Below, in pieces: positions 3,004 through 53,285 of a DNA stretch of 55,635 nt (position 1 is the stretch's first letter; each line of letters begins with the position of its first letter). A model generated the notes under the pieces. That model saw only the letters and a program-made list of their open reading frames with translations. It was not told where the DNA came from and made no database searches. The stretch is from positions 1 through 55,635 of IMG/VR virus record IMGVR_UViG_3300026268_000003; one strand, 5' to 3'. The position numbers were made by a program, and so were the translations under genes. This stretch comes from a virus.

Positions 3004-3189
3004 ATGGAGATTATCGGTATGAAGTGTAAATACTCATTTACAATAGAAGATAGACTAATGGATTGGTTTAGATTATACGTTAGAGAAGAAAGTACAACTA
3101 TGAGTGCTGTACTTAATCAACATATATTAACTTTGAAAAGAAATAAAGAAGGATATACTAAAACTAATAATAAATTAAAAGTTAGTTAA
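3004..3189 (+). CDS. Small ribbon-helix-helix-like DNA-binding protein
   Basis: A 61-residue plus-strand gene between two minus-strand genes. Residues 8-45 follow the ribbon-helix-helix pattern: a short strand (KYSFTIE), a helix (DRLMDWFRLYVREES), a turn and a second helix (MSAVLNQHILTL), ending in a lysine-rich tail. RHH proteins bind DNA as dimers and often repress transcription. It overlaps the 3' end of the convergent Mre11-Rad50 gene by 8 bp and has its own candidate promoter. No strong Shine-Dalgarno is seen. The fold call is by pattern only. Confidence 0.55.
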   Translation: MEIIGMKCKYSFTIEDRLMDWFRLYVREESTTMSAVLNQHILTLKRNKEGYTKTNNKLKVS

Positions 3190-6100
3190 AAGTTATCTTA
3201 CTAAAACCTTCTTCTTTTTTAAGTTCTAATAAAGTATCAACGGCATCTCTCATGCCCTCAATGTGTGATACAATCATAGTAAATTGAAATTGTGATTTCA
3301 AATATTGAAATAAATTATAAACAGAATTTAAATTATCGGAATCCATATTACCAAATCCCTCGTCAATAGCAAGAAAATTAGTACTTGGTAAATTACAAAC
3401 ATTAATCAAACCAACACGTATAGCTAAAGAAGAAATGAATTTTTCCATTCCACTTGTCAATTCAAGAGGCCAAATTCTATTATCATCATATACAATATAA
3501 CAATTAATATTCTTACCATCCATTTCCAACATTACAGAAAATTCTACTATTTGAGCTAATATCTCATTTACAGCTCCTTCTACAGTAGGAATAGCTTTTG
3601 ATATTAATTCATATGGAACACCATCACGTTTAACAGCGTTCAAATAAAACTCATAAGCTTTATATTTAATTTCTAACTCTTCTACTTCTTTAATTGTTGA
3701 TAATATATTTTTCTTATTATTTTCAGCTACCTTAACATTACCATGTACAATTTTAATATCATTTTCTATATTATCAATTAGACCAGATAAATTAACCATA
3801 GAATCTTTAAGTTCTACTATATCTTCTTCTAATTCTTTATTAAAAATAACATCTTCTTCTTGTTTATAATAATTTGTAATGTCTTGTTCAACAGAACTTA
3901 TTCTTTCAATAATATTTTCTTTTTTCTCTGTTAATAATATTAATTGACTATCTATTTTATTTTTTAATACCTCAACATCATTTAATTTTTGTCTGATATC
4001 ATCATATTGTATTTTATCATCTTTAACATATACAAGTGATTTTATAATACCAACAATTCTATCATATTCTTTAACATGATTGTTAGCTATTTCTTTATCT
4101 TTTTCTAATAACTCTTTTGTATTTATAGCATCAAGTGTAAATGGATTACTCATACAAAAATCACAATCTTCATCCCATTCCAATCCACCCAATTTTTGTA
4201 TCTTATCAAGTTTATTTTGTACTTGAATTTTTAACTTATCAAGTTCAATTTTCAAGGTATTTTTCTTCTCTTCATATTTCTCTAATTCATCATATTTAGA
4301 ATCAATATCTACATCATTATATTTATTATGTTTTTCTAACAAATTATTCTCTTTTAAAGAAACATCCTTTTCGTGTGATTGACAAAAACCTAATTTTTCA
4401 TCTATATCTGCTAATGTTGAGTTTAAATTATCTTTTTTAGTTTGTATTGAATCTAAATCTGTTATAGATTCGTCAACATTCTTTAATTTCTTTGTAGTTT
4501 CTATAACATCTGTATTTAATTGTTGATATTCATCCAACCATTCTTCTTTTTGTTTTGTTAACTTATCATATTCTATAACATATGAATTTAAATTATTTTG
4601 TGTATCTGTTAATTCAAAATCATAATCTCTTTGTTGAAACCTTCTTAGTATTGCAGAAACATCTGATATCTCTTCATTGGCTTTTTTCCACAATTCATCA
4701 AAAATACCTATACCAATAAACTTAGATAATAAATCCTTTCGTTCTCTTTGAGTCTTGTCTATAAAAACAGTATTATTATTTTGTAAAGATAGTGCTGTTA
4801 AAACAAAATCTTCATAAGAACCTATAACACTTCTAATATTTACATTAGTTGTTCTACGTTGGTCACCATTTAATGAAATTGTTTCACCAGTTTCATCAAT
4901 CATCCAAAAATTAACATCTACTTTAACATGACCATTACTTAACTTCTTAGCTTTTCTTTCTATATAATAATCTATATCACTTATTTCAAAATTAACCTTA
5001 CAATAAAAATTATTTTTCCTATTGTTTAGAATATTTTCAGCTTTAAACGCTCTCGATGATGTATCATATAAACAAAACGATAAAACATCCAATAAAGCTG
5101 ACTTACCACTTGCGTTCGGTGAAAAGAGTCCAACTATTCCATCAAGTTTTGTGAAATCTACCACATTATCTTCACCATAAGAAAACATATTATCAAAAGT
5201 CATTGATTTTAATTTCCATAAAATATTTCTTGGATATTCATTATGAAAAAACGTTGAATTTAATTCTTCATTTATTTTTTTAATTTCAAGTAAAGTATCT
5301 TCATCTATTGCATAGTTTTTTTCAAGATGTTCACTAATCAATTTATATTGATGATTAGAATCAGTAATATCACCTATCTCTATCTTTGAACCATCAATGT
5401 CTTTTCTATCAAAACCATCTGTTTTAGTTACTATTACTTCTTTTATCCCATATTTACTTCGTATTACTGCTAAAACTTTCTTTAACTGTGATGGTTTAGT
5501 GTTTGTTATTCTAACCCTTAATCGAGATTTAGAAGGCATATCACTAACAACTGGTACTACACCATTATTTACATCCAAAGTATAATAACCATAATCATTC
5601 TGAATAGGTACATATGTAGATTTACGACTTGGTACATCCCACCTCAAGTAGCCGTGGTCTAATCCCTCGCCATGATTCTGTTGGACTAATGAACCACAAT
5701 AAGAAATAGTTTCTTCTTCATTAAGATGTTGTCTCTTATGTATATCACCCAATAATCCAAGGTCATATCCATCAAACTTATCTATATGTACATCAGAAGG
5801 TAACTTAAATCCCAAATCTGTTTCTGACTTGTCAACAGTACCATGAAATAGTACTATTTTAGTATCACCATCTACTTGGTCGGATGTTATAAAACTATCC
5901 TCTTTATCCCAAACATCCCATACTACAAACGATACATCAGCAAACTTATAAATCCCACTATCTTTAAAATAAAACAATCGTGGATGATTTAAATTTTCTA
6001 CAATAGGTGTTAAAACATCTAACCTTGAACGATTATTTAAGTTACAATCGTGATTTCCAGCTATTATTATCGTTGGAACTATATCTGCTAAATTTTTAAA

Positions 6101-6328
6101 TAACCTTGATAGTTGGTCAACCAATTCAGGTGACATTTCTGTTTTAGAATGAGCTATATCACCACCAATATATGCTACTGCATTATCTGGGTATTTCCTT
6201 ACTTCTTCATAAGTACGTTCAAATACCTCTTCGTATTCCTTATGTCTCTTCAGATTACGTATTTGTATATCTGAAATGTGGTGTATGTATTTTAACTTGT
6301 CAAATAATTGAATATCTTGTTTTATCAT
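3182..6328 (-). CDS. Single-chain Mre11-Rad50 (gp47-gp46 / SbcD-SbcC) fusion nuclease-ATPase
   Basis: 1048 residues in one frame. Residues 15-260 are an Mre11/SbcD metallophosphoesterase: GGD at 55-57, GNHD at 91-94, FHG at 161-163 and GDIHKRQ at 194-200. Motif I reads DIQ (20-22) where DxH is usual. From about residue 370 a Rad50/SbcC ATPase begins, with Walker A GLFSPNASGKS at 400-410, a long coiled coil split by a CDFC zinc hook, a TSGMEKF signature and Walker B FLAIDEGFGNMD near the C-terminus. In T4 these are separate proteins, gp47 and gp46, that process ends for recombination-dependent replication. The primase start overlaps its start region by 4 bp. The fusion is direct from sequence; activity is inferred. 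Confidence 0.93.
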   Translation of the reverse strand: MIKQDIQLFDKLKYIHHISDIQIRNLKRHKEYEEVFERTYEEVRKYPDNAVAYIGGDIAHSKTEMSPELVDQLSRLFKNLADIVPTIIIAGNHDCNLNNRSRLDVLTPIVENLNHPRLFYFKDSGIYKFADVSFVVWDVWDKEDSFITSDQVDGDTKIVLFHGTVDKSETDLGFKLPSDVHIDKFDGYDLGLLGDIHKRQHLNEEETISYCGSLVQQNHGEGLDHGYLRWDVPSRKSTYVPIQNDYGYYTLDVNNGVVPVVSDMPSKSRLRVRITNTKPSQLKKVLAVIRSKYGIKEVIVTKTDGFDRKDIDGSKIEIGDITDSNHQYKLISEHLEKNYAIDEDTLLEIKKINEELNSTFFHNEYPRNILWKLKSMTFDNMFSYGEDNVVDFTKLDGIVGLFSPNASGKSALLDVLSFCLYDTSSRAFKAENILNNRKNNFYCKVNFEISDIDYYIERKAKKLSNGHVKVDVNFWMIDETGETISLNGDQRRTTNVNIRSVIGSYEDFVLTALSLQNNNTVFIDKTQRERKDLLSKFIGIGIFDELWKKANEEISDVSAILRRFQQRDYDFELTDTQNNLNSYVIEYDKLTKQKEEWLDEYQQLNTDVIETTKKLKNVDESITDLDSIQTKKDNLNSTLADIDEKLGFCQSHEKDVSLKENNLLEKHNKYNDVDIDSKYDELEKYEEKKNTLKIELDKLKIQVQNKLDKIQKLGGLEWDEDCDFCMSNPFTLDAINTKELLEKDKEIANNHVKEYDRIVGIIKSLVYVKDDKIQYDDIRQKLNDVEVLKNKIDSQLILLTEKKENIIERISSVEQDITNYYKQEEDVIFNKELEEDIVELKDSMVNLSGLIDNIENDIKIVHGNVKVAENNKKNILSTIKEVEELEIKYKAYEFYLNAVKRDGVPYELISKAIPTVEGAVNEILAQIVEFSVMLEMDGKNINCYIVYDDNRIWPLELTSGMEKFISSLAIRVGLINVCNLPSTNFLAIDEGFGNMDSDNLNSVYNLFQYLKSQFQFTMIVSHIEGMRDAVDTLLELKKEEGFSKITFN

Positions 6329-7272
6329 ATATCTATAAACTTACTTTGTTTTGTGGCTAACTTACTTTGTAAAAAAGTCTTTAAATTCATCCTTTTAGTG
6401 TTTTTAATTTTACCAATCATGTGTGCAAACCCAACATCAGATGGGTCTTTATCGTGCATACCTACATAATAAACTTCAACACCATTCTTCATTAACTTAG
6501 CTGATAGTTTTAACGCGTCAATTTTAGCGTCTTCATCTAACACGATGTAAATTTTCTTAACACTTTGTCTATATAACTCAGTTTTTAACTTATATTGTAT
6601 AGTCTTACCAAATAATGGTATAGCATTACGTTTTATAGCTATGGCATCAAATACACCCTCACATAATACTAATGGTTCATCCCAATTAATGAATAATTCA
6701 AACCCAATTACATCTTTAGATATTGGTGGATTCTTATATTTCAACTTACTATTGTATATGTCTCTACCAACAAAGTAATTTAACGACCCATTTTTATCAT
6801 AAGATGGTATTATAACTCTATTTGTGTATGGGCCACTCTCACAATACCCCATATTATACCTTAATATATCATCTCCAGTAATACCCCTTGATAACAAATA
6901 ACTTGTAGCTTGTTTATATACTGGTGATGGATGTTTTATAGCAAGAGAAAGAAACTCTTTCGGTAAATTAACGACTTGTTTTTTAGTTTCACTATCATCA
7001 TTTTTGTAACTAACCGAATTTGTACCTACAATATCACGTAATTCAGAAAATTGATTATTTGTAGCATTTACTTTCTTAAACAATTGATATAAATTATGAC
7101 CACCCTCATTACTTACCCAACAATGCCATTTACCTGTTTGTACATTTATTTGTAATTTCTGTTTATGGTGTGCTACAAAAGGCGACCAAAACATATACTC
7201 ATTGGCTTTTTTTAATTGTCTACCACTCGTCTTTAAGACTCTATTAAGTAGATTAACTATTTTTTGATTCAC
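6325..7272 (-). CDS. DNA primase (gp61-like, TOPRIM)
   Basis: A 315-residue protein. The C-terminal half has a TOPRIM domain: PLVLCEGVFDAIAI supplies the catalytic Glu, followed by YIVLDEDAKIDALKL with the DxD-like acidic pair. The N-terminus keeps the frame of a CHC2-type zinc domain (HHKQKLQINVQTGKWHCW), but the CPxC and CxxC partners have become Ser or Asn (FWSPF, HCWVSNEGG), so normal zinc binding looks lost. It lies between the recombination nuclease and a small nuclease, in keeping with replication. Family DnaG/gp61; makes RNA primers with the replicative helicase, which is not in this window. Confidence 0.85.
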   Translation of the reverse strand: MNQKIVNLLNRVLKTSGRQLKKANEYMFWSPFVAHHKQKLQINVQTGKWHCWVSNEGGHNLYQLFKKVNATNNQFSELRDIVGTNSVSYKNDDSETKKQVVNLPKEFLSLAIKHPSPVYKQATSYLLSRGITGDDILRYNMGYCESGPYTNRVIIPSYDKNGSLNYFVGRDIYNSKLKYKNPPISKDVIGFELFINWDEPLVLCEGVFDAIAIKRNAIPLFGKTIQYKLKTELYRQSVKKIYIVLDEDAKIDALKLSAKLMKNGVEVYYVGMHDKDPSDVGFAHMIGKIKNTKRMNLKTFLQSKLATKQSKFIDI

Positions 7273-7603
7273 ATAATAACCTTAGAAATTCCTTTATGTC
7301 CATAGTGACATAAGTTTTACTTCTGTTTCTTTTAAATATCAATAATGGTTCATAACCATTTGAATTATTTTCAGCTTGTTCTAATGCTTTCCATATAGAC
7401 AAAGCTTCTTGATTTTTACACTCAATAGCGTAAGGAATAAATTTTCTAGCGGCAGGTGATAATTGAATATCTTCTCCAGATTCTCCCATAGTAGTAGATT
7501 TTATGTCATCTGGTTCTAATTCGTTTTGAAACGTTTCGAGTAATAAATCTCGTATTTTGTTTTGTAATCGTTTGCCTTTATTTTTACGGGAACGTGTGTT
7601 CAT
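7253..7603 (-). CDS. PD-(D/E)XK nuclease-like protein
   Basis: A basic 116-residue protein. It has an N-terminal helix with a conserved-looking Glu, then MGESGEDIQLS (candidate active-site Asp) and YAIECKNQE (the E-x-K half of a PD-(D/E)XK centre), like Hjc-type resolvases and small phage endonucleases. It overlaps the primase start by 20 bp, and a GATATATATTAATA variant of the phage promoter box lies just upstream. Probably acts on branched DNA in recombination; the exact substrate is unknown. Confidence 0.6.
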   Translation of the reverse strand: MNTRSRKNKGKRLQNKIRDLLLETFQNELEPDDIKSTTMGESGEDIQLSPAARKFIPYAIECKNQEALSIWKALEQAENNSNGYEPLLIFKRNRSKTYVTMDIKEFLRLLCESKNS

Positions 7604-7640
7604 AACCTATTAATATATATCTACTTTTAAACCAAAAGAC

Positions 7641-37975: not shown

Positions 37976-37996
37976 AATATACTCCTTTCATATTTG

Positions 37997-38405
37997 TGGA
38001 GCCGGGGAGATTCGAACTCCCGTCCAGTCTGTTTTTTTCAATGAGTCATTCACAACTTAGTTAGGTTACTACCCTCCGAGAAGTTACCTACAAACCACCG
38101 ACTATTTTATTGGATAGTTCCGTACATCTTTATACTCATATGTAAGAGTTGGTGTTCAACTTATTTTATGCTCGGGTGTTAAACAACCCAAGGACTTACG
38201 CGTAAGCGTATGTCGGTTGATAATCCGAAACAGGTTCGTCAACATAGTTGTCAAACATCCGTTCAGAATTGGCGAATTGCCAATCAATTACCAACCCGTC
38301 TAGCGATTTATCGCCAATTAGGTTTGTGAGTCTTTTTTAGCGAGTCTTACTCAAACTCCGTTGCACTCAATTGTCAAATAACACCTGTCGAAACCTTTCG
38401 GCCCC
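37997..38405 (-). ncRNA. ssrA: tmRNA (ssrA), one-piece, phage-encoded
   Basis: The 5' end GGGGCCGAAAGGTTTCGACAG and the 3' end GGACGGGAGTTCGAATCTCC pair as the tRNA-like domain. The acceptor stem GGGGCCG/CGGCTCC keeps the G3-U70 pair that alanyl-tRNA synthetase reads, with discriminator A and no encoded CCA. The conserved GTGCAACGGAG follows. A single open frame with no stop runs through the mRNA-like part to TAA at about 38197, ending ...DYQPTYAYA. A likely resume codon is GCC near 38272 (tag ANSERMFDNYVDEPVSDYQP then TYAYA), but earlier codons are possible. Pseudoknots fill the 3' half. About 409 nt. tmRNA rescues stalled ribosomes; neighbours are phage genes on the same strand. Confidence 0.92.
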
Positions 38406-39260: not shown

Positions 39261-39269
39261 ATAAATATC
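39261..39269 (-). promoter_or_regulatory. GATATTTAT box upstream of 160-aa/117-aa/tmRNA genes
   Basis: Sense-strand GATATTTATAGTTGGGAGAA, 17 bp from ATG 39244. It would lead a transcript that also covers tmRNA. Confidence 0.45.
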
Positions 39270-40467
39270 AGTTCTTTAATAAATGTGGACTAGCTTCTAT
39301 TTGTCCAGCTCTTGACACTTCCACAAATTCTACTTTAGAATGATACTCACTAATATTGCTAGCACCGACATAGCTACATGAACTATTGATGCCATCTCGA
39401 ATATCATGTAAGATTCTTTTGACTTTCCCTTTGTATGGAATAATTTTGTGATTTCCTTCGACATTTTTATCGTTTCCTTTGAAATCCCTTGACGCGGAAC
39501 CCCTATACTTTTTAAATAATTGTTCGTTTGGCCATTCACCTACTTTTTCAATTTCGCCTGGACTTTCTTTCGTACCAGATAAAAGGGAGCCCAACATAAT
39601 CGTATCAGCCCCGCAACCAAGTCCTTTACAGACATCACCAATAGTACGAACACCACCATCAGCAATAACGGGAGTATTATAATTATCAGCAACGGCGACA
39701 GCATCAAGGAGAGCACTAACTTGAGGCACACCCACGCCTGTTCTAATTCTTGTTTCACATAATGAACCATTTCCCACTCCAATTCTAACCGAGTCCGCTC
39801 CTTGTTCACATAAAAATCGTACTCCTTCTGCCGTGGCCACTGACCCCGCGACGACTTCAACATTATTTTCTCCTTTAAGTTTACTTATAGCGTTACTCAT
39901 TAATTTATGATGACCATGTGCTATATCAATAAATAGTACATTACATCCATTATTTACTAATTCTTTTGCGCGTTCTAAATAATCACCTTTAACTCCAACA
40001 GCCGCACACAATGGTCGTTTAGACCAAATTTTTTCATCATGAATCATAGAATCTGCGAAATAAAATCTTTCTTTTAAATCTTTCCAATCTGATTTAGTAG
40101 GTGGACTATTCCAATGTCTTATACTACTATCCCATTCTTTCCATTCCTTTTCAATAGTTCTTTCTTCACCATCTGTAATGCCTGGTACTCCATCAAAATA
40201 TCTATCCCATTCATAATGTAATGATTTCATCATACGAGCGTGTTTCTCAATACTCTGAAATCTATGTATAACACCAACTCCACCCCAATCCATCATTTCT
40301 TTTGCCATATCTAATTCAGTTACGGTATCCATTGGTGAAGCAACTATTGGAATGGTTAATATAGTATTCTTGGTAAACCTTGTAGTCAAATCTACATCAT
40401 CACGAGATTCTAATTCAGAATACTTAGGAACTATATTTACATCATCATATGTTAATGTTTTTCTCAT
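39268..40467 (-). CDS. guaB: IMP dehydrogenase without CBS domains
   Basis: 399 residues. [19 protein letters not shown], the catalytic loop [18 protein letters not shown] (Cys237) and the flap KKYRGSAS are specific for IMP dehydrogenase/GMP reductase; the C-loop context fits IMPDH best. Normal IMPDH (~490 residues) has a CBS pair inserted after the first ~90 residues; here a ~60-residue charged segment ([14 protein letters not shown]...) replaces it, so allosteric nucleotide control is probably lost. It makes XMP from IMP, the first step to GMP, and would raise guanine supply. Phage copies are unusual. Confidence 0.88.
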
Positions 40468-40475
40468 ATATCTTT

Positions 40476-40706
40476 TTACGCTTCTCCTTGTGTAGTGTCA
40501 TACATTATTGTTTCATAATATTTTTTTTCTGCTACTTCTACTATTTCGTCAAAATCTTTACCCGTTAAAATCAATTTCAGACCTTCTAATGATTGTATAT
40601 TGTAATGTGTTAAAATCATATCTATTATAACTGAATCTATTGGTGAACTAATTTTCTTATTCCACGGGCCTGGCCTTTTTTTACTTAAATCAAGTGGTTC
40701 ATCCAT
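40476..40706 (-). CDS. Small unknown protein (76 aa)
   Basis: Starts at ATG 40706 (MDEPLDLSKKRPGPWNKKI), overlapping the upstream stop by 8 bp in ATGGATGA; a longer reading to 40757 lies within the previous gene. Ends EKKYYETIMYDTTQGEA. No domain recognised; it lies 8 bp before the IMPDH gene. Confidence 0.5.
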   Translation of the reverse strand: MDEPLDLSKKRPGPWNKKISSPIDSVIIDMILTHYNIQSLEGLKLILTGKDFDEIVEVAEKKYYETIMYDTTQGEA

Positions 40707-41130
40707 TATATTTTTTATCCATTTTGTTTTTATACCATTCTTTATTAGGTTTATCATCAGTAGTATTCCACATTGACTTTTTAATTAACTCATCAATTGG
40801 TTTATTCTCTTCACCAAATCTTCCATCACTTTCCCATAATACATATAATGTAGTATCGAGAGCATCTGCAATACTTTTTAATAACATATAATCTTGTGTA
40901 AGATTTAAATCACCATACCACACTTTACCATAATCAAGTATCATTACATTTGCATTCCATACAATCAAATCCTCAGGATGTTCTTCTTGATATCCCCATT
41001 TAGTACCAGATAACATTCTGGCCATATAAAGACCATGAGACTCAAAATATTGCTGTATTCCTTCTACAATCATATCTGGTTTAAAGTCACTCGGATATTC
41101 ACCAGTTAATTTTATTGTTTTATCAATCAT
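40699..41130 (-). CDS. Unknown protein (143 aa)
   Basis: Start at ATG 41130 overlaps the deformylase stop as ATGA. 143 residues with mixed alpha/beta pattern, Trp-rich (GTKWGYQEEHPEDLIVWNAN, KVWYGDLNLTQDYMLLKSIA). The DLNLT...LYVLWESDGR layout is reminiscent of small phage-conserved proteins, but no family can be assigned. Confidence 0.55.
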   Translation of the reverse strand: MIDKTIKLTGEYPSDFKPDMIVEGIQQYFESHGLYMARMLSGTKWGYQEEHPEDLIVWNANVMILDYGKVWYGDLNLTQDYMLLKSIADALDTTLYVLWESDGRFGEENKPIDELIKKSMWNTTDDKPNKEWYKNKMDKKYNG

Positions 41131-41777
41131 GTTATCGGGCCTCCTATATAAATTTCCCAATCACCACTATCTATAAGTGGTTTAGCTTTTTTGTATTTAA
41201 TTTCTTTATAATCCTTACCATCTGTAATACCAACGATTTCGTTTCTTCCCCACTTCTTTGATACTCTACGTGGTTTTCGTTTTTGTTCTCTATCCATAAT
41301 GGTTAGTCCATTCAAATGGTCTATCTCGTGTTGGACACATACAGCCTCTAACAATCTTAGTTCTTGGTCTTCGTCTTTTCCTTTTTGTTCCCAACTACCT
41401 TTTACATCTTGAATAGTTTCTACTCCACTAAAATACCAACCAGCTTCTTCTTGTTCGCTTTGTATTATTACATTTCTGTATCGTTTTGTGTGAACGCCTT
41501 TCTTTGGAAATGATAAACAACCTTCATAATAACCTATTTCATCCCATTGTTTTGTAATAACGGGATTGATTAAGATAAGGGGCTCCCTAACATTAACCAC
41601 AGCAACAGCGGCGTCAATACCCACTTGGTTAGCCGCAAGACCAATACCATCCTTCCGTTCTGCGAGAATGTTGAGTAAATCTTTTGCAATAGATAATCCT
41701 TCATCTACTGATACCTTTCTTAGTTTTTTATTTATAACTGGATTATTTTCTTTAAAACAATCTATTACTTTATGCAT
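41127..41777 (-). CDS. def: Peptide deformylase
   Basis: 216 residues. All three metal/active-site motifs are intact: GIGLAANQ (45-51), EGCLS (85-89, Cys87 ligand) and QHEIDH (149-154). Removes the N-formyl group from nascent proteins. A ~35-residue insertion rich in Glu, Gln and Gly separates motifs 2 and 3. Marine T4-like phages often carry def, thought to speed maturation of phage or host proteins. Overlaps a small lipoprotein gene upstream and the 143-aa gene downstream. Confidence 0.93.
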   Translation of the reverse strand: MHKVIDCFKENNPVINKKLRKVSVDEGLSIAKDLLNILAERKDGIGLAANQVGIDAAVAVVNVREPLILINPVITKQWDEIGYYEGCLSFPKKGVHTKRYRNVIIQSEQEEAGWYFSGVETIQDVKGSWEQKGKDEDQELRLLEAVCVQHEIDHLNGLTIMDREQKRKPRRVSKKWGRNEIVGITDGKDYKEIKYKKAKPLIDSGDWEIYIGGPIT

Positions 41778-41934
41778 AAGTTTCCATTTTTACTTCATCA
41801 ATGTATTCTAATTCAATTGGTGGTGGTGGTACATCATAACAAACACATCCATTTAACTGTAATACCAACACACAAATTATTAAAAATAATATAACACCTA
41901 AAACCTTACAGCTTGTTTCTTCAAACGTTGTCAT
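41770..41934 (-). CDS. Small lipoprotein (spanin-like pattern)
   Basis: 54 residues. A hydrophobic signal VILFLIICVLVLQ is followed by the lipobox LNGC, then CYDVPPPP and an acidic tail. That is the layout of a tiny lipoprotein such as an o-spanin. Start is coupled to the upstream stop (TAATG); its stop overlaps the deformylase ATG by 8 bp. No i-spanin partner is proven. Too short for most gene callers. Confidence 0.5.
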   Translation of the reverse strand: MTTFEETSCKVLGVILFLIICVLVLQLNGCVCYDVPPPPIELEYIDEVKMETYA

Positions 41935-42014
41935 TAAGGAAACCTAAACCAATCACCATCAGCTACATGATACGCTATATATAGTAATATAACTATAACC
42001 ATAAATTCAAACAT
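41934..42014 (-). CDS. 26-aa membrane micropeptide
   Basis: MFEFMVIVILLYIAYHVADG then DWFRFP: one hydrophobic helix with an aromatic end. TAATG couplings join it to both neighbours, and AAGGAG lies upstream. Position before the small lipoprotein suggests a membrane role in the same unit. Tiny size limits confidence. Confidence 0.4.
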   Translation of the reverse strand: MFEFMVIVILLYIAYHVADGDWFRFP

Positions 42015-42184
42015 TACTTCTCCTTTTGTTCTTTGAGAGAGCCAACTGCCCAACTCATATGTTCACAATACAACTTAGCATCTTCCTCATCTCTTGCCCA
42101 AAACTTATATCCTTCAGTAGAATCCCATTGTTTATAGTTATGAGCTATATGAAGAGGAATATCTTTTCTTTTTTTCTTAGCCAT
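42014..42184 (-). CDS. Small unknown protein (56 aa)
   Basis: MAKKKRKDIPLHIAHNYKQW, then DSTEGYKFWARDEEDAKLYCEH. A polar, Trp/Tyr-containing protein with a basic start, coupled by TAATG to the next gene and 1 bp from the upstream one. No family recognised, but coding character and packing are good. Confidence 0.5.
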   Translation of the reverse strand: MAKKKRKDIPLHIAHNYKQWDSTEGYKFWARDEEDAKLYCEHMSWAVGSLKEQKEK

Positions 42185-42185
42185 T

Positions 42186-42365
42186 TTAATCGGCTCCTTT
42201 TACAAATTTACAATCACATTCATCTACCCAACATGGTGAATCATCTTCCCAACGTCTTTGATGAGTTGCTTGCCAATCAAGACCAAACACCCTTAAATGA
42301 TACATCCGCTTTTTATGCGTTTCAATCATTTCTTTTTGTCTTTTAGTTAATTTATCAACACCCAT
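42186..42365 (-). CDS. Small unknown protein (59 aa)
   Basis: MGVDKLTKRQKEMIETHKKR, then a Trp/Cys-rich end (DDSPCWVDECDCKFVKGAD) with three Cys that could bind metal. Overlaps the upstream stop by 11 bp. Unknown. Confidence 0.45.
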   Translation of the reverse strand: MGVDKLTKRQKEMIETHKKRMYHLRVFGLDWQATHQRRWEDDSPCWVDECDCKFVKGAD

Positions 42366-42543
42366 CAATTATTATTGTGTTCTGGTCTTTATGATAAAGT
42401 CTATCTATTTCTGTTTTACCATAACCACGTTTTTTCAAAACTGTAGCTCTTGTCATATATGTCATTGGAACGTCTGATAAGTTAGGTGGTCTACCAAACT
42501 CATCTACAAATAACATTTCCGATAACCATTTCTTTTTAGACAT
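42355..42543 (-). CDS. Small helix-turn-helix-like protein (62 aa)
   Basis: 62 residues. MTRATVLKKRGYGKTEIDRL has a short turn between two helices in the manner of small DNA-binding proteins, but the match is weak. Ribosome site AAAGGATAG. Overlaps the downstream gene. Unknown. Confidence 0.45.
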   Translation of the reverse strand: MSKKKWLSEMLFVDEFGRPPNLSDVPMTYMTRATVLKKRGYGKTEIDRLYHKDQNTIIIDGC

Positions 42544-42577
42544 AACTATCCTTTATTTATTGTTAAAATTTTATTTA

Positions 42578-42784
42578 CTAATCAAGTGTTTTAACATTCT
42601 TAGCAACAGCACCTTTTGTACTTTCTCCAATTTCAAATGTAATTTTTTGACCTTCTTCTAAAGTCTTAAAACTATCACTTTGAATTTCGGAAAAATGTAC
42701 AAAATAATCTTTATCGTCTGATATATTAGATATGAAACCATATCCTTTTTTACTATCAAACCATTTTACTTTACCTTCGTTCAT
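42578..42784 (-). CDS. Cold-shock protein (CspA family)
   Basis: 68 residues, a complete [18 protein letters not shown] holds RNP1 and DYFVHFSEI holds RNP2. Binds single-stranded RNA/DNA and melts RNA structure. Start 4 bp from the upstream gene's stop with AAGGATAAT. Useful for translation or transcription antitermination during infection. Confidence 0.93.
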
Positions 42785-42788
42785 TATA

Positions 42789-43217
42789 TTATCCTTTATC
42801 TATTTTATGATTTAAAAAATCTTTTTGTTTCTTTACAGCCTTTTTCAAAGCCGCTTTCTTTTCTTTGTTTCGGGCTAAAAGAATTTGTTCTCTTGTCCGA
42901 CGCTTAGTTTTCTTTGGTGGTCTAACCTTTGTAGGTTTTAACTTGCCCTTCAGTTTAGGTTGTTCTTTACCCTTGTGAAATACATTACCATCTTTATCAA
43001 CAAACTCGTTCATCCAATGCCATCCCGCGGGACGACCAGTTGGTTTATATGATTTAGGTTCTTCTGGGAAATCACAAGTAGCTAAAACACATATAGAACA
43101 AGTTACTGATACGGCTTCATCACCGACACCTCTAACTTCTCTACCACATTTATGACAACACATATAAAGTATACCATCTACTCTATAAGAATTTGATTTA
43201 TTTATTGCAGATTTCAT
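42789..43217 (-). CDS. Zinc-ribbon protein with basic tail
   Basis: 142 residues. [11 protein letters not shown]...[11 protein letters not shown] gives a CxxC...CxxC zinc ribbon in the first 50 residues; a Pro/Lys-rich, very basic tail follows ([35 protein letters not shown]). Looks like a nucleic-acid-binding protein. The layout (ribbon, [14 protein letters not shown], basic tail) is one I associate with marine phages, but I cannot name it. Confidence 0.6.
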
Positions 43218-43234
43218 AACCTTCCTTTTTTTAT

Positions 43235-43471
43235 TTAAGCTTCTCCAACAATATCTCCACTAGCTCTTTGGGCTCTATATAACTCATGGTCATTTTTATG
43301 TACCTTTTTTAGCATCTCGTGGATTTGTCTGAAGTCATCTTCATGAGCCATTTCAAATTCAATAATATCATCTATTAAATAGCCAATTATATCTGTAGCC
43401 TTTTCCAAGTCTTCCTTATTAATAGAATCTTCAACTTGTTCTAATAGATTTACTAACTTTGTTATGTTCAT
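43235..43471 (-). CDS. Small helical acidic protein (78 aa)
   Basis: 78 residues, nearly all helix (LLEQVEDSINKEDLEKATDI, FRQIHEMLKKVHKNDHELYR). A good frame with an AGGAGTAA site. No family known. Directly follows tRNA-Cys. Confidence 0.5.
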   Translation of the reverse strand: MNITKLVNLLEQVEDSINKEDLEKATDIIGYLIDDIIEFEMAHEDDFRQIHEMLKKVHKNDHELYRAQRASGDIVGEA

Positions 43472-43484
43472 TTATTACTCCTTG

Positions 43485-43552
43485 AGTGCCGGGTGAGATT
43501 CGAACTCACGTACAATGGATTTGCAATCCACCCCATTAGACCACTCTGGCAC
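43485..43552 (-). tRNA. tRNA-Cys (GCA)
   Basis: Acceptor stem GTGCCAG/CCGGCAC (one A-C mismatch), anticodon loop TTGCAAA giving GCA, T-arm GTGAG-TTCGAAT-CTCAC and discriminator U, a Cys identity base. The D-arm is short (total 68 nt). CCA is not encoded. The 3' end of the SWIM gene overlaps its 5' end. Confidence 0.85.
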
Positions 43553-43799
43553 CGACACGGCCCCTCTGTCGATGCGAAAACTTTTTATTTTGTATTTCAT
43601 TGATGTGTTTACAAAACTTTCTACCCCAACGATGTCTGAATGTAAAAGCTTTACATTCACAAGACCATTCAACTCGATTCGAGTCAAACCTAATATCATA
43701 TGGTTTACCATCTATCGTGTAATGATAAATATCATAGTCATCTACTAAAACACCATCAAATTTTTCGATTAAATAGTTAATCAATTCTTTATTTTTCAT
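43536..43799 (-). CDS. SWIM zinc-finger protein overlapping tRNA-Cys
   Basis: 87 residues. WSCECKAFTFRHRWGRKFCK then HI fits the SWIM pattern CxC...CxH, a zinc motif in DNA-associated proteins. The last nine residues are encoded by the first bases of tRNA-Cys, so gene end and tRNA start share DNA. ATG coupled to the HAD gene stop. Confidence 0.6.
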   Translation of the reverse strand: MKNKELINYLIEKFDGVLVDDYDIYHYTIDGKPYDIRFDSNRVEWSCECKAFTFRHRWGRKFCKHINEIQNKKFSHRQRGRVGARVV

Positions 43800-44279
43800 T
43801 TAAAAATCCCCGTCAGCTACTTGAAACACATTAAGTCCAAGAGACCGCCACATTTTAACAACCTTATCCCTGTCATCAACAACAAGAAATACATCATTGA
43901 TATCAACGTGTTTATCTAACATATCTTTTTTAAGAATATCATCTGGTGTAAAATGATTGGTTTTAGAATCTCTCATAACTAATTTTTTAAATGGAATTCT
44001 ATTGTGAGTCAACCAAGACAACGTTGCTGTTGCTGTTTTATCTGACCTACCAGAAAAAATGATGATAGTGAAACCATCATCGGCTAACAATTGAGCCAAC
44101 TTAACAACGGATGGATTAGGTACATCCAACCTAATATTAGACGGGTCAAAAAACTTATCCCAATCCAACTTACCATTTGATTTAGTAGAAACATCCCGTC
44201 TCTTATCAATAAGAGCGAGTGTACCATCAAGGTCAAAAATGACCTTATTCTTTTTAAAATTGTGACCTGATTTAATCAT
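43800..44279 (-). CDS. HAD-family phosphatase (PNK 3'-phosphatase-like)
   Basis: 159 residues. VIFDLDGTLALIDKRR (DxDGT nucleophile), IIIFSGRSDKTATATLSWL (motif II Ser) and VFLVVDDRDKVVKMWRSLGL (DD motif) are in the arrangement of the C-terminal phosphatase of T4 polynucleotide kinase. No kinase part is present. Probably removes 3'-phosphate or nucleotide phosphate. Transcribed from the sigma-70-type promoter whose -10 ends 5 bp before its ATG. Confidence 0.78.
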   Translation of the reverse strand: MIKSGHNFKKNKVIFDLDGTLALIDKRRDVSTKSNGKLDWDKFFDPSNIRLDVPNPSVVKLAQLLADDGFTIIIFSGRSDKTATATLSWLTHNRIPFKKLVMRDSKTNHFTPDDILKKDMLDKHVDINDVFLVVDDRDKVVKMWRSLGLNVFQVADGDF

Positions 44280-44284
44280 AACCT

Positions 44285-44313
44285 AATATACAAATAATGC
44301 AAACAAAAGTCAA
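44285..44313 (-). promoter_or_regulatory. Sigma-70-type early promoter, leaderless arrangement
   Basis: -35 TTGACT (44308-44313), 17-bp spacer, -10 TATATT (44285-44290), then AGGTT and ATG. The start site would fall at or next to the A of ATG, so the HAD mRNA may be leaderless. Upstream CTC and the spacer TTTGTTTGCATTAT are shared with the 50496 promoter. Confidence 0.85.
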
Positions 44314-44336
44314 GAGCTTTTTTTAATTATTTTTAG

Positions 44337-44381
44337 TGGGCGGGTAAGTTTTGACACTCACGACCTATAGCCTCCCGCCCC
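44337..44381 (-). other. tRNA-like remnant or hairpin
   Basis: GGGCGGG (44374-44380) pairs with CCCGCCC (44338-44344). The interior contains GTGAG-TGTCAAAA-CTTAC, an imperfect T-arm with an 8-base loop, next to the 3' acceptor strand as in a tRNA, but the anticodon arm is missing. It may be a decayed tRNA, or serve as a terminator for the porin transcript. Confidence 0.35.
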
Positions 44382-44392
44382 ATTATCCTTAC

Positions 44393-45187
44393 TTAAAAGG
44401 TATAACTTACTCGTACTGAAACGTCTCCATCTGCGGATAACTCTGAACGAATGTTAGAATTACCGTAGTGATAACCAACACCATACATGGTTTTGGTGTC
44501 ATCACCCATAGATGAATATCCTACAAGAGCAGTGATACCTTTAGTAAAAGACGGCGAGATTACAGCTCTATACCATAAATCCCCACTCGTTTCTTCACTA
44601 AGGTCATACTCAAAATAAGATGCGATTGAACCAAGTGATTCATATGAAAATGTTCCACTTGCATCCAATAGACGTGCTTCATCACTATTGATAGAAACCC
44701 CAGCAGTGTGACCAAGTAATTCGTAAGATGTTCTTACAGAATATGACTGGTCATTGCCGTAAAATCCAGCAATACCTACACCCGCGTATTCGGTAGATGC
44801 TCCAAGTCCAACGGCATAAGCCTGAGAACTTGGTTCACTAACGAATGGATTTCCTGAAGGTCTATGCCAATGATTGGAAAGACCAAAAGGAACTCTTTGT
44901 TGTCCAAGTGTAACGGAAGTAACTTTAGCATCTACATTGTAATATGCTTCTTCTACGTTCACGCCACCCTCTGACAATTGCGATGTAAGTTTCCATCCTT
45001 CTCCACTATAAGAAATTCCTGTATATGGTGTGGTAAAAGATACTGTATCACCTATAGTAATATCAGTACTAAACTCACCACTCCAAGAATTTACCGATTC
45101 AACGGCTTCTTCTTGTACTTCTTCTTGTGCGAAAATAATTCCGCCGAAAAAGACAATAGTAGATAGGATTGTTTTTAGTGTATTCAT
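44393..45187 (-). CDS. Outer-membrane porin
   Basis: 264 residues from ATG 45187 (AGGAG site; longer readings run through tRNA-Ala). Signal peptide MNTLKTILSTIVFFGGIIFA cleaved before Q, an acidic linker, then an antiparallel beta-barrel with alternating strands: TLGQQRVPFGLSNHWHRPSG (a porin hallmark), AVGLGASTEYAGVGIAGFYG, and a C-terminal strand VSVRVSYTF ending in Phe, the BamA-recognised beta-signal. Similar in style to FCB-group porins. May alter host permeability or block other phages. Lies 109 bp downstream of tRNA-Ala. Confidence 0.8.
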   Translation of the reverse strand: MNTLKTILSTIVFFGGIIFAQEEVQEEAVESVNSWSGEFSTDITIGDTVSFTTPYTGISYSGEGWKLTSQLSEGGVNVEEAYYNVDAKVTSVTLGQQRVPFGLSNHWHRPSGNPFVSEPSSQAYAVGLGASTEYAGVGIAGFYGNDQSYSVRTSYELLGHTAGVSINSDEARLLDASGTFSYESLGSIASYFEYDLSEETSGDLWYRAVISPSFTKGITALVGYSSMGDDTKTMYGVGYHYGNSNIRSELSADGDVSVRVSYTF

Positions 45188-45296
45188 CGCGTCACTCCTA
45201 TTTGTTATGTTGGATTCATTTATAATAGGTTGAACCCTTTGACCTATTGTGAGATATATTACAGAATATGTAATGGTCTGATATCTCCTTTCATTG

Positions 45297-45369
45297 TGGA
45301 GCTGACAGGACTCGAACCTGCGACTTCCTCCGTGCAAGGGAGGCACTCTCCCAACTGAGTTACAGCCCC
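45297..45369 (-). tRNA. tRNA-Ala (UGC)
   Basis: 73 nt. Acceptor GGGGCTG/CAGCTCC with the G3-U70 Ala identity pair, D-arm ACTC..GAGT, anticodon loop CTTGCAC (UGC), T-arm GCAGG-TTCGAGT-CCTGT. Discriminator A, CCA not encoded. Standard cloverleaf. Confidence 0.95.
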
Positions 45370-45385
45370 AGCTCTCGAACTGTAA

Positions 45386-45673
45386 CTACGTTTTTTCCAA
45401 TTCTTTTAAATCTTCCAATGTTGGTTGTACATATAAATAATACGCTTCTTCCTTTTGAGAATTATCATATATCTCTTCTTGGTCAACCAACTTATTTAAT
45501 TCTCCTACATCTTGGTCATACATATGATTGTTAAACCATTCTTCTAAATCTTCTTTTGTAAAATTTTCACCAAGTTCTTCTACTATCATAGGATACTCAT
45601 CAGTATCAAATTCTATTTGGTCTCTAAATATATATTGTGTAATTGTTTTTAATCTACCTATCCGATATTTCAT
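45386..45673 (-). CDS. Unknown acidic protein (95 aa)
   Basis: 95 residues, very acidic (LVDQEEIYDNSQKEEAYYLY). Begins MKYRIGRLKTITQYIF. The ATG has AAAGG upstream. No domain recognised. Lies upstream of tRNA-Ala and porin. Confidence 0.45.
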   Translation of the reverse strand: MKYRIGRLKTITQYIFRDQIEFDTDEYPMIVEELGENFTKEDLEEWFNNHMYDQDVGELNKLVDQEEIYDNSQKEEAYYLYVQPTLEDLKELEKT

Positions 45674-45691
45674 GTTAACCTTTATTTTAAA

Positions 45692-45753
45692 AGTACGGCC
45701 ACCAATTATAAAGAAGGTTCAAGTTATAAGATAACAAACTTGATGACCGTACT
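45692..45753 (-). terminator. Nested hairpin downstream of membrane gene
   Basis: Outer stem AGTACGG/CCGTACT (7 bp) encloses an inner 7-bp stem TCAAGTT/AACTTGA with an 11-base loop, followed on the minus strand by TTTTAAAAT. It overlaps the stop codon of the 45753 gene. A terminator or RNA-processing site. Confidence 0.45.
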
Positions 45754-46682
45754 CATTTCTTTTGTGGTGAAATTCTTGCTTGTTTACTTTCCATATTAAT
45801 ATCTGTATTATCATCTATTGGTATACTCATATTATGTAACGCTTCCATTGATGGATTTTCTTCCTCAATATTAAATATCTCCTTAGCTTTGGAAACCAAT
45901 GGTTTTTTTTCACCATATATTTTCCACCATTTTCGCTTATTTTTATTTTTTATCGCAGCGGGTTGGTTACCATTTTTTTCTTTAGCTTCTAACGCTACAT
46001 TATATCCTATAACTAACACAACAGCTAATGGGTCAAACACAAAGATAAGAATAAAGATAAAGAACTTAACTACTGTATCTACATCAGTTCCAAATGTTCT
46101 GGCTAAATAAATGGCTGGCCCCACATCAACTCCAGTTTCTATCAACGCTGTTTTTAAATCACCAATCTCTGCCTTAACTTCTAATATTTCATCATTTACT
46201 TTTAATACCTTTGGATTATAATCTGAACGAAGTTGCCTTTTCGCAGTAATATAATTGTCAGGCAATTCTTCAATAGCAAATTCTAATTCATCTTTAAGAT
46301 ATTGTTTATCTTCTTGTAACTGACTTAATCTATCTTCTTTATATAATAAAACCGTAGATTCTTTTTCAAATTCAATTGTTGCACCTTGATAGGCATTAGA
46401 TAGGAATCCAAATATACCAGCCGATGTTATACCAACTAATGTAATCACACCAACTAACATATAAGTTTTCATCCAAAGATTTATCTTTGTCCAATACCGA
46501 TATAAAAATGTTGCTGTTACTAATTTAGCAAATTCTAAACTACCTGCCATAATAATTACAGCTAAAGTAGCACCAGAAAATAATTTAGATAATCCAAATA
46601 CAGAATAAAATGCGGCACTACCAGCAACAGCTAAGGCCGAAATACCTACAAGGTATGGGAATATTTTACTTCGTTCAAACAT
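45753..46682 (-). CDS. Multi-pass membrane protein with cytoplasmic coiled coil
   Basis: 309 residues. TM helices near 8-32, 36-58, 72-95 and 205-230 (FFIFILIFVFDPLAVVLVIG). A coiled coil lies between TM3 and TM4 (DRLSQLQEDKQYLKDELEFA...LKVNDEILEVKAEIGDLKTA), and the tail is charged and disordered. This architecture recurs in marine T4-like phages. Function unknown; the FDPLAVVL motif in the last helix is characteristic. A GGAG ribosome site and an ATATTTAT box precede it. Confidence 0.6.
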   Translation of the reverse strand: MFERSKIFPYLVGISALAVAGSAAFYSVFGLSKLFSGATLAVIIMAGSLEFAKLVTATFLYRYWTKINLWMKTYMLVGVITLVGITSAGIFGFLSNAYQGATIEFEKESTVLLYKEDRLSQLQEDKQYLKDELEFAIEELPDNYITAKRQLRSDYNPKVLKVNDEILEVKAEIGDLKTALIETGVDVGPAIYLARTFGTDVDTVVKFFIFILIFVFDPLAVVLVIGYNVALEAKEKNGNQPAAIKNKNKRKWWKIYGEKKPLVSKAKEIFNIEEENPSMEALHNMSIPIDDNTDINMESKQARISPQKK

Positions 46683-46700
46683 ATAAGGTTCTCCTTTTAT

Positions 46701-46708
46701 ATAAATAT
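46701..46708 (-). promoter_or_regulatory. ATATTTAT box upstream of multi-pass membrane protein
   Basis: Sense-strand ATATATTTATATAAAAGGAG, 19 bp from the ATG at 46682, merging into the ribosome site. Confidence 0.4.
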
Positions 46709-46716
46709 ATAAAACC

Positions 46717-46905
46717 TTACTTTATATCTTCAAATTCTGCTTCTATTATGTCCATGCAAAAATAAAAATCTTTACCACTTCTAAGAACTGTATCGGCTCC
46801 CCAACATTTTTTCCAGTACTCTGTACCTTTTTTGTTGGTTACCTCTACACCCATTCTACCCAATATCCAATATAAGGTATCATTAACATTTATATATTTA
46901 CGCAT
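46717..46905 (-). CDS. Small unknown protein (62 aa)
   Basis: 62 residues with several Trp and Cys (YWKKCWGADTVLRSGKDFYF). One Cys pair is spaced widely. Good coding character; no family. Confidence 0.45.
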   Translation of the reverse strand: MRKYINVNDTLYWILGRMGVEVTNKKGTEYWKKCWGADTVLRSGKDFYFCMDIIEAEFEDIK

Positions 46906-46913
46906 TATAAAAA

Positions 46914-46951
46914 CAAAGCCACCCTAAACGCTACACAACACCTCTTTGTTC
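46914..46951 (-). terminator. Possible terminator after Hsp20
   Basis: On the minus strand AACAAAG pairs with CTTTGTT and is followed by TTT. It lies between the Hsp20 stop and the 62-aa gene, so it could end the Hsp20 message. Long loop, moderate support. Confidence 0.35.
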
Positions 46952-46965
46952 ATGCGTAACCTTTA

Positions 46966-47445
46966 TTAAGATATCTTTACAAATGTCTTTTTAGGTTGTT
47001 CTGGCTCTATTTTTGGAACGTCAATCATTAGTATCCCGTTTTCAAATTTAGCGTTGATGTTATCACCATCAAGACTATCACCTAAAGTGAAACTACGTTT
47101 GAAAGATGAACCTTTAAGTTCTCTACGAAGAACTTTTGCTTTATCATCTGCAGAACCTATTGAATGTTTCTTGCCTGAAATAGTCAAGACACCTTCTTCA
47201 ACTTCAACTTCAAGGTCTTTCTTGTCTAAACCTGGAATTTCAGCAACGATACCAACTTTGTCATCGTATTCATAGACATTTACCTTTGGATAAGCTGAAC
47301 CTTGAAAAGGCGTAACTCCAACAGTATTTACAAACTCTGGAAAGTTTGTTTCAAACATACTATCAAATAGTTTATCAAACGGGGTTAAAAAAGAATCCCT
47401 ATCAAAGAATGTAGGGAGATTGCGGATTGTTGTGACTTTAGTCAT
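46966..47445 (-). CDS. Small heat-shock protein Hsp20
   Basis: 159 residues. The alpha-crystallin domain includes YPKVNVYEYDDKVGIVAEIP, LEVEVEEGVLTISGKK, RREL...FKRSFTL and AKFENGILMIDVPK (the GxLxxxxP signature). A 12-mer-type chaperone that holds unfolding proteins. Marine T4-like phages often carry it, thought to aid scaffold or capsid folding. An ATATTTAT box lies 78 bp upstream; AGGAGAAAAACC ribosome site. Confidence 0.94.
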   Translation of the reverse strand: MTKVTTIRNLPTFFDRDSFLTPFDKLFDSMFETNFPEFVNTVGVTPFQGSAYPKVNVYEYDDKVGIVAEIPGLDKKDLEVEVEEGVLTISGKKHSIGSADDKAKVLRRELKGSSFKRSFTLGDSLDGDNINAKFENGILMIDVPKIEPEQPKKTFVKIS

Positions 47446-49266: not shown

Positions 49267-50448
49267 TTAACTCATAGAGTTAGCGTTTTCAATTTCATCT
49301 TCATTAAACAAATCATCAGAAGAACCATCAGTAATATATTTCTGAACTAATTGTTTAACATAAGTTCTTTCAGACTCAAGTCCACCATCATCCGAAAACT
49401 GAGGATAGATACTAACTTCAGCCGCCTCATCAAGTCCAAAACCATCATAAAGTAAACCGGCTACTTCAACCGATGTACGAGTAGAAACTCCATTAGTAAT
49501 TCTACCTGTTTCAGATTTAGACTCTGAACGAGTAGTGGTAGTAATAGAAGCAACAGACTCAAGTAATGATTCATCAACGTGAGGAAACATATACTTTAAA
49601 AGACCATACTCTTCATCAGAAGTTAAGACATCCATCTCAACAACAATGAATCTATCCATAAGGGCTTTATCCATAACCCTTGTAGAAGTATACTCATTAC
49701 CAACGTTAGCAGTAGCAACGAAAGTTACACCTTCTGCAACACTAACAGTTTCAGCACCATCAGCCTCATCCAACCGAAGATATCTTTGACCTGTATCTAA
49801 TACAGTCATCAAGATATTCCACGCATCAGGATGAGCTCTTGATAATTCATCAAGAAGAATCACAGCGTTAGGTGTACGAATAGCTTTAACAAAAAGAGAT
49901 TCAGAAAAATAAGTTCCATCCTTTTTATCAAAGTGAGTATTACCAATTAAGGTAGACCGAGGGTCTTGAGTAGCACCCAAGTTAAAGTAGAAATCAGGTC
50001 TATCCATCGCATTAACAAGTGACTTAGCAGCCATTGTCTTACCACAACCAGCAGGACCAGTCATCAACATATTCTTACCACGAACAGCTGACCTAACTAA
50101 GAACTTCCATTTAAGTTCTGACATAACCAAACCTTTAGGTTTAAGTTTATAAGAACTATGTATAAAGTTAAGTACTTCAGCGTGGTCACTTGGTACATCA
50201 ACACTTGACGTATCAATTACTGGGGCTGAAGTTGATTCAAAAACAGACATAGGAACTGACCACCAGTAAGGTTTACCAGATTTGTTAATCCTACGTTCAA
50301 GGGCCATACCCTTAGCATAAGCTTTCTTTCGAGTACCAGTTCCAATCTCAGATGTTAATTTGTTACCATCAACATCCCAAGCATTGAATCGGTTACCCGA
50401 CTTTTCGATTTTTACAACAACAGAATTGTTATTGTCAATATTAGTCAT
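49267..50448 (-). CDS. MoxR/CobS-like AAA+ ATPase
   Basis: 393 residues. Walker A GPAGCGKTMA (131-140), Walker B NAVILLDELSRAH (194-206), sensor region EGVTFVATANVGNEYTS and an Arg-finger-like RVMDKALMDRF: the MoxR/CobS class. The N-terminal ~70 residues form a small separate domain. MoxR proteins pair with VWA proteins to remodel complexes; such a VWA protein is encoded at 51125. A sigma-70-type promoter and a GGAG site precede it. Marine T4-like phages are often annotated cobS for such genes. Confidence 0.85.
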   Translation of the reverse strand: MTNIDNNNSVVVKIEKSGNRFNAWDVDGNKLTSEIGTGTRKKAYAKGMALERRINKSGKPYWWSVPMSVFESTSAPVIDTSSVDVPSDHAEVLNFIHSSYKLKPKGLVMSELKWKFLVRSAVRGKNMLMTGPAGCGKTMAAKSLVNAMDRPDFYFNLGATQDPRSTLIGNTHFDKKDGTYFSESLFVKAIRTPNAVILLDELSRAHPDAWNILMTVLDTGQRYLRLDEADGAETVSVAEGVTFVATANVGNEYTSTRVMDKALMDRFIVVEMDVLTSDEEYGLLKYMFPHVDESLLESVASITTTTRSESKSETGRITNGVSTRTSVEVAGLLYDGFGLDEAAEVSIYPQFSDDGGLESERTYVKQLVQKYITDGSSDDLFNEDEIENANSMS

Positions 50449-50478
50449 TAAATTTGACTCCTTTTTTTTTGTGTTTCA

Positions 50479-50536
50479 TTTCTCATTTCGTTATTAATAT
50501 ACGTATAATGCAAACAAAAGTCAAGAGCTTTTTTCA
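50479..50536. repeat. 58-bp promoter repeat, copy 1
   Basis: Matches 53286-53343 with one mismatch. It contains leader, -10, -35 and the last codons of the preceding gene (EKSS). Confidence 0.85.
50496..50524 (-). promoter_or_regulatory. Sigma-70-type early promoter for AAA gene
   Basis: TTGACT (50519-50524), 17-bp spacer, TATATT (50496-50501). About 40 bp to the ATG with a GGAG site. The TGA inside TTGACT is the stop of the 53-aa gene at 50521. Confidence 0.88.
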
Positions 50537-50682
50537 CTTTTCTCAAGCTTTTTTTTGTCTTTTTTTAAATTAGTATAAATCATATCATCCATCTTGTCTT
50601 CATTGAGCCAATCAAGAGTTGAAAAACCACCTTGTGTAAACTCATCTAATTCAATCTTTAATTTTTTATTACGATATTTCAT
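50521..50682 (-). CDS. Small charged protein (53 aa)
   Basis: 53 residues, MKYRNKKLKIELDEFTQGGF, STLDWLNEDKMDDMIYTNLK, ends KLEKSEKSS. ATG lies directly after the stop of the 60-aa zinc gene. Its stop codon is the TGA within the -35 box of the AAA promoter. Charged, probably helical. Too short for most callers. Confidence 0.5.
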   Translation of the reverse strand: MKYRNKKLKIELDEFTQGGFSTLDWLNEDKMDDMIYTNLKKDKKKLEKSEKSS

Positions 50683-50865
50683 TTATTTTTTCCTTTTGAA
50701 CCAATGTAATTTACCATTTCCATTATCAAATGTTTCCAAACCACATTTTTTCCATATACATTTCCATTGGTATCTATCAGTATATTTTTCAAATGGTTTC
50801 ATAACCCAACCACAATTACAAGTTGGACTATGTTTATAATATTTTTTTAATAACCACTTAAACAT
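50683..50865 (-). CDS. Small zinc-ribbon-like protein (60 aa)
   Basis: 60 residues: HSPTCNCGWVMKPFEKYTDR, then WKCIWKKCGLETF. CxC and CxxxxC spacings make a likely single zinc site. Basic and Trp-rich. Overlaps the upstream gene. No family named. Confidence 0.5.
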   Translation of the reverse strand: MFKWLLKKYYKHSPTCNCGWVMKPFEKYTDRYQWKCIWKKCGLETFDNGNGKLHWFKRKK

Positions 50866-51124
50866 ATTGACTTACCCACTCTGCGTTTTCTCTCATGTAT
50901 GTATCAATACAACTATCTAAATACTTATCACTTGTGGATTCTACCCAACTAAAATTCCCATCTTCATCTTCATATCCAATACACATAACTTCACATTCAG
51001 CTTCATTAGGAAAATACAACCACTTATATTCTATGAGATAAGGTTTATCATAATACTCATCAAACTCCTCTGAATAAGTGTGGTGGTAATATGTTAGTTC
51101 TAAAGGTTTACTTACTGGTATCAT
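50858..51124 (-). CDS. Unknown acidic protein (88 aa)
   Basis: 88 residues, Tyr/Glu-rich (TYYHHTYSEEFDEYYDKPYL, IGYEDEDGNFSWVESTSDKY). Starts directly after the VWA stop. No domain. Confidence 0.45.
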   Translation of the reverse strand: MIPVSKPLELTYYHHTYSEEFDEYYDKPYLIEYKWLYFPNEAECEVMCIGYEDEDGNFSWVESTSDKYLDSCIDTYMRENAEWVSQYV

Positions 51125-53275: not shown

Positions 53276-53285
53276 TTTTTCCTTG

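Follow-up and report, generated by a model that had tools for sequence, protein, structure and literature searches.

The window analysed here, a 55,635-nucleotide stretch of viral DNA (IMG/VR record IMGVR_UViG_3300026268_000003), encodes a genuine N-terminal Mre11/SbcD nuclease and a complete Rad50/SbcC ATPase in one frame (Table 1). With a probability of about 0.88, we consider the product a true single-chain Mre11-Rad50 (SbcD-SbcC) enzyme that serves DNA-end processing and replication dependent on recombination, most likely the only such enzyme of its phage; the window is a fragment, and the sole-copy counts come from relatives. The fusion is common to many aquatic phages, and it is real and well conserved.

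A single open frame encodes both the nuclease and the ATPase

The frame runs from an ATG to a stop codon through 1,048 uninterrupted codons. Pfam Metallophos (calcineurin-like phosphoesterase) matched residues 15-191 (6e-8) and AAA_23 (SbcC-type ATPase) matched residues 376-616 (4e-9), both above cut-off, and SMC_N matched residues 373-1041 at 1e-8, slightly under its own cut-off. The protein also matched PHROG 77 (SbcC) at 5e-42. These matches and the ORF itself bear out an earlier note on this DNA, made from the letters alone, which had described one uninterrupted 1048-residue frame with both active regions. The motifs that the note had listed, namely DIQ as motif I, GDIH, Walker A/B and a CDFC hook, were all found (SDIQ, GDIH, FLAIDE, CDFC); the note had omitted that Walker A has a serine in place of its first glycine, a position that is mostly alanine in relatives.

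Next, the same fusion was looked for in viral databases, as the note had suggested. The fetched set comprised 30 loci from an IMG/VR protein scan, 80 more from an alignment scan, two MAG contigs and Microcystis phage Mel-JY01, with some contigs represented twice. At least 464 relatives were confirmed by the alignment scan. The fusion was present at full length in a single ORF in 107 fetched loci, corresponding to 91 distinct proteins from many metagenomes and one isolate genome, so that an open frame of this kind greatly exceeds what chance would produce. Seven shorter ORFs were also found, at six loci; five of these loci were incomplete copies located at or close to contig ends, and at the sixth, LR756508, the gene was split by an insert (see below). 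The note had named a stop at the junction in relatives, or a sequencing error joining two genes, as what would refute the fusion; no fetched relative of the window fusion had such a stop, and there was no sign of a sequencing join. Purifying selection acts on every part of the fused frame, junction included. In a comparison with the closest relative among the matches listed (83% identity), pN/pS was 0.19 for the whole frame, 0.12 for the nuclease, 0.15 for the junction (residues 320-420), 0.10 and 0.07 for the two ATPase lobes, and 0.33 for the coiled coil. An assembly or sequencing artefact joining two genes would have a precedent in Listeria phage LMTA-57, which appears fused only through a one-base deletion. 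For the window, this explanation was rejected and is refuted for practical purposes because the relatives, including the isolate genome, are intact and the junction is conserved under purifying selection.

Two contigs placed in Chloroflexi and Gammaproteobacteria MAGs (L115 and L116) also carried DIQ fusion genes with a primase gene alongside. They are probably phage contigs binned with bacteria.

Table 1. Features of the fused gene and its neighbours (window coordinates)
Feature	Position	Strand	Remarks and basis
Fused Mre11-Rad50 (SbcD-SbcC) gene	3182..6328	-	1048 aa, Mre11 part first; ORF, Pfam, PHROG, relatives
Mre11 nuclease domain, residues 13-241	5606..6292	-	Pfam Metallophos; VIA-align to SbcD
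Motif I, D20-I21-Q22	6263..6271	-	DxH in most Mre11; sequence, alignment
Motif V, G194-D-I-H197	5738..5749	-	GHxH in most Mre11; sequence, alignment
Capping domain, residues 246-302	5423..5593	-	AlphaFold model; SbcD nuclease+capping structure 7dog aligned over 13-303
Helix-loop-helix (HLH), helices 324-338 and 343-358	5255..5359	-	Model; position as in Mre11 HLH
Linker, residues 359-369 (11 residues)	5222..5254	-	HLH to first Rad50 strand; model
Rad50 ATPase lobe I, residues 370-540	4709..5221	-	Pfam AAA_23; E. coli SbcC head
Walker A SPNASGKS, residues 403-410	5099..5122	-	Sequence motif
Coiled coil, residues 541-899	3632..4708	-	Helices of model
Zinc-hook CxxC, C722-D-F-C725	4154..4165	-	Invariant in alignment
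Rad50 ATPase lobe II, residues 900-1048	3185..3631	-	Motifs; SbcC head alignment
Primase-like (Toprim) gene	6325..7272	-	4-base overlap with fusion start; Pfam, PHROG
PDDEXK/RusA-like resolvase gene	7253..7603	-	Upstream of primase; Pfam, PHROG

Apparent fusion in LMTA-57 and an insert in LR756508

The deposited sequence of LMTA-57 (L004, KJ591605.1) contains a 1009-aa fused recombination exonuclease gene, and we initially placed it in the tree as an independent second fusion. Phage LMTA-34 has two genes here, and the LMTA-57 DNA differs from it only in that one A is missing where the first gene ends, near base 3887 of the LMTA-57 locus. This deletion, which is also found in RefSeq, is likely a sequencing error or a strain indel. 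A second fusion was ruled out because the single deleted base accounts for the fused frame, and the tree is therefore uninformative on repeated fusion. The deep placement of the fused clade relative to the two-gene versions of T4, Grass and T5-like phages was also set aside, since the branches, at 5–8 changes per column, are too long to interpret.

In the uncultured phage LR756508 (L001, LR756508.1), an insert of about 900 bp (6705-7611) lies right after the active-site motif GDIHKRQ and splits the fusion into two ORFs. An Rfam search of the insert gave no match. The insert has its own reading frame, whose product has CxxC motifs and a C terminus resembling a nuclease, so it is likely a mobile intron that carries a homing endonuclease.

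Domain anatomy of the fused protein

The protein was modelled with AlphaFold using 80 natural relatives (mean pLDDT 82, pTM 0.45); this model superseded an earlier one made with 21 sequences (pLDDT 70). The order along the chain was nuclease, cap, HLH, linker, ATPase and coiled coil, the relative placement of the domains not being established at a pTM of 0.45. VIA-align to the E. coli and S. aureus SbcD structures gave Z scores of 23-24 over residues 13-303, and alignment to the E. coli SbcC head (7yzo) gave a Z score of 28.7. The cap and the HLH are retained, and from its position in the model, the HLH at residues 324-358 would be the Rad50-binding element. The modelled linker of about 11 residues agrees with the 9–12 residues estimated for other fusions (PMC3175470). 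The Rad50/SbcC feature set is complete, with Walker A, Q-loop, signature (SGME, residues 959-962), Walker B (FLAIDE, 985-990), H-loop (SH, 1021-1022) and a coiled coil with a CxxC hook.

In-frame ATG codons occur at residues 376 and 381, at the beginning of the Rad50 domain, and a separate Rad50 chain could in principle be made from one of them besides the fused protein. We regard this as very improbable: a chain beginning at either codon would lack a large part of the first ATPase strand (residues 370-379), and no Shine-Dalgarno-like sequence was found upstream of either ATG near the junction.

Substitutions in the metal site of the nuclease

Calcineurin-like motifs I to V are all present. 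Two ligand positions of the DxH, GD, GNHD, H, GHxH set are substituted, by Q22 and D195, and D20, D57, N92, H162, D195 and H197 are invariant across 80 aligned relatives. Asp at the position of Pfu His206 (GDIH) was found in 91 of 91 close relatives. GDIH also occurs in the 735-kb phage LR756501 and in the jumbo phages PTm1 and MA9V-1, and GHxH in PAU, T4 and Grass. Since a GDxH can likewise be aligned in PR1, a T5-like phage with two genes, and the fused protein of PAU has GHxH, the Asp is not tied to fusion.

DIQ was found in 34 of 92 proteins, that is, in the window protein and 33 of its 91 relatives (32 by motif search, plus L040, whose start was mis-set). These proteins all fall into a single supported group of 36 tree rows, where only two (L058 and L061) truly have DxH, a distribution that would fit one gain and about two reversals. 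The sisters of this clade carry DIH, and DIQ is mostly confined to the clade of the window protein. DxQ is seen again in PTm1, PAU and MA9V-1, whose fusions are distant from this clade.

With two of the usual metal-binding histidines replaced, the nuclease could be weak. If its catalysis was lost or changed, the protein might serve chiefly to tether DNA ends, driven by ATP, with the cutting left to another phage nuclease, such as the PDDEXK/RusA-like protein encoded two genes upstream. We consider this unlikely. The two ligand positions do deviate from canonical Mre11, but 80 proteins share the remaining ligands D20, D57, N92, H162 and H197 without exception, constraint on the nuclease part is strong, the sister proteins retain DIH, and aspartate can itself ligate metal. 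Furthermore, human ADPRibase-Mn is an active enzyme of a family that normally has D[V/I]Q; its Gln27 coordinates metal 1 in a docking model, and the Q27H change lowered efficiency 11–27-fold (PMC4334965). Gln at the motif I position is therefore compatible with catalysis. Altered nuclease chemistry due to DIQ and GDIH is possible, and the inference is weak because DIQ is mainly found in one subclade with DIH sisters, DxQ is normal in ADPRibase-Mn, and GDxH occurs in a two-gene T5-like homologue. It is likewise doubtful, though somewhat less so than the tether, that the metal site of this aquatic phage clade has been remodelled by Gln and Asp so that the nuclease prefers another metal or divides its activity differently between endo- and exonucleolytic cleavage.

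Genomic context and proposed role

Of 116 loci, 99 had a primase homologue directly upstream of the fusion (distance below 400 nt), and most of the others had it farther upstream. Nine long phage records were searched with PF13476 (AAA_23). The fusion was the sole Rad50-like ATPase in 8/9, including the complete Microcystis phage Mel-JY01, and the other phosphoesterases of these records were short separate proteins. A RecA homologue was found in 7/9 and not in the other two, which are possibly fragments. The annotation of T4 gp46/47 states that recombination and the breakdown of host DNA require them. By analogy with them, the sole ATPase, the presence of RecA and the linkage to primase support a role of the single-chain enzyme at DNA ends in recombination-dependent replication.

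We infer that the fusion dimerises and has nuclease and ATPase activity. Two chains would associate through both their nuclease domains and their ATPase heads and so form the usual M2R2 complex out of two copies of one polypeptide, and the short linker would set a 1:1 stoichiometry and hold the nuclease beside an ATPase head. DNA ends would be recognised by the ATP-gated heads and trimmed by the nuclease to a 3' single strand. This strand would then be passed to a phage RecA and used in repair and in replication that depends on recombination, as with T4 gp46/gp47. The fused enzyme may also help to break down host DNA.

Several other features were observed in the window. A large ORF of at least 983 aa with fibre-like repeats runs off the contig end (1-2949, minus strand), and a similar-looking ORF is present in locus L040. 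A phage-encoded tmRNA (37994-38405, minus strand; Rfam RF00023, 87 bits), missed by ARAGORN, was found, together with tRNA-Cys (43484-43558) and tRNA-Ala (45296-45369). Genes for a dehydrogenase (PHROG 9582), a peptide deformylase, a polynucleotide kinase and an Hsp20 protein lie at 39268-47445 (minus strand). A MoxR/CobS-like AAA ATPase is encoded near a CobT_C-like (vWA) protein (49267-53344, minus strand); the two are possibly a chaperone pair, as reported in jumbo phages (PMC7824862), rather than cobalamin genes.

Discussion

The earlier note had contrasted the fused chain with T4 gp47 and gp46, and the contrast is correct. T4 gp47/gp46 and E. coli SbcD/SbcC are encoded by two genes, although their folds and motifs are alike and their role is expected to be so; T4 has DxH and GHxH, unlike the DIQ and GDIH of the window protein. 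The novelty that the note had implied did not hold. Yoshida, Claverie and Ogata described in 2011 the Mimivirus protein R555 and twelve other Mre11/Rad50 fusions from bacteria (some plasmid-borne), eukaryotes and one Bacillus phage (PMC3175470). R555 has Asp242 in place of Pfu His206, and the authors suggested that many abundant R555-like aquatic sequences, some on scaffolds with primase genes, may derive from phages (PMC3175470). The window protein shares with R555 the order Mre11 then Rad50, the junction of HLH plus short linker, and the Asp. It differs in its length (1048 versus 1351 aa), its occurrence in tailed phages and its motif I DIQ. The best full-length structural matches were about 20-24% identical to it, and the top BFVD matches, obtained with the earlier model, were proteins of similar or greater length from the Mimivirus group (Tupanvirus, Harvfovirus, Yasminevirus and Catovirus).

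Full-length phage fusions have also been deposited, several of them annotated for one domain only. The 'AAA domain containing protein' of Mel-JY01 (WWT39521.1) and the LR756508 protein represent the same fusion, with about 37-39% identity over the full length and a primase gene upstream; in Mel-JY01 motif I is DVH, and in LR756508 the gene is broken by the insert. The jumbo phages Tenacibaculum PTm1/pT24, Sphingomonas PAU and Chryseobacterium MA9V-1 encode a one-chain 'metallo-phosphoesterase' with a CxxC hook. In these three, motif I is DxQ in 3/3 and GDIH is present in 2/3. The jumbo-phage proteins are about 1300 aa long and are linked to the window protein through that of the 735-kb phage (23-24% identity), not being among the matches listed for the window protein itself. 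A jumbo-phage survey describes SbcC/SbcD as near-universal, and the passages found in it make no mention of a fusion (PMC7824862). A search mostly covering journals outside subscription found no literature after PMC3175470 on phage Mre11–Rad50 fusions and no paper on Mel-JY01. Fused Mre11–Rad50 has thus been a known kind since 2011; the window protein fits the published description closely, and its novelty is limited.

The complete genes and their neighbourhoods support the 2011 proposal that the R555-like fused Mre11–Rad50 sequences of aquatic metagenomes come from phages, and they indicate that the fusion is the sole Mre11–Rad50 of those phages. A single-chain enzyme with fixed stoichiometry would be convenient for structural study of the joint motion of nuclease and ATPase, and the natural DxH/DxQ variation within one family provides a clean test of the role of the motif I ligand.
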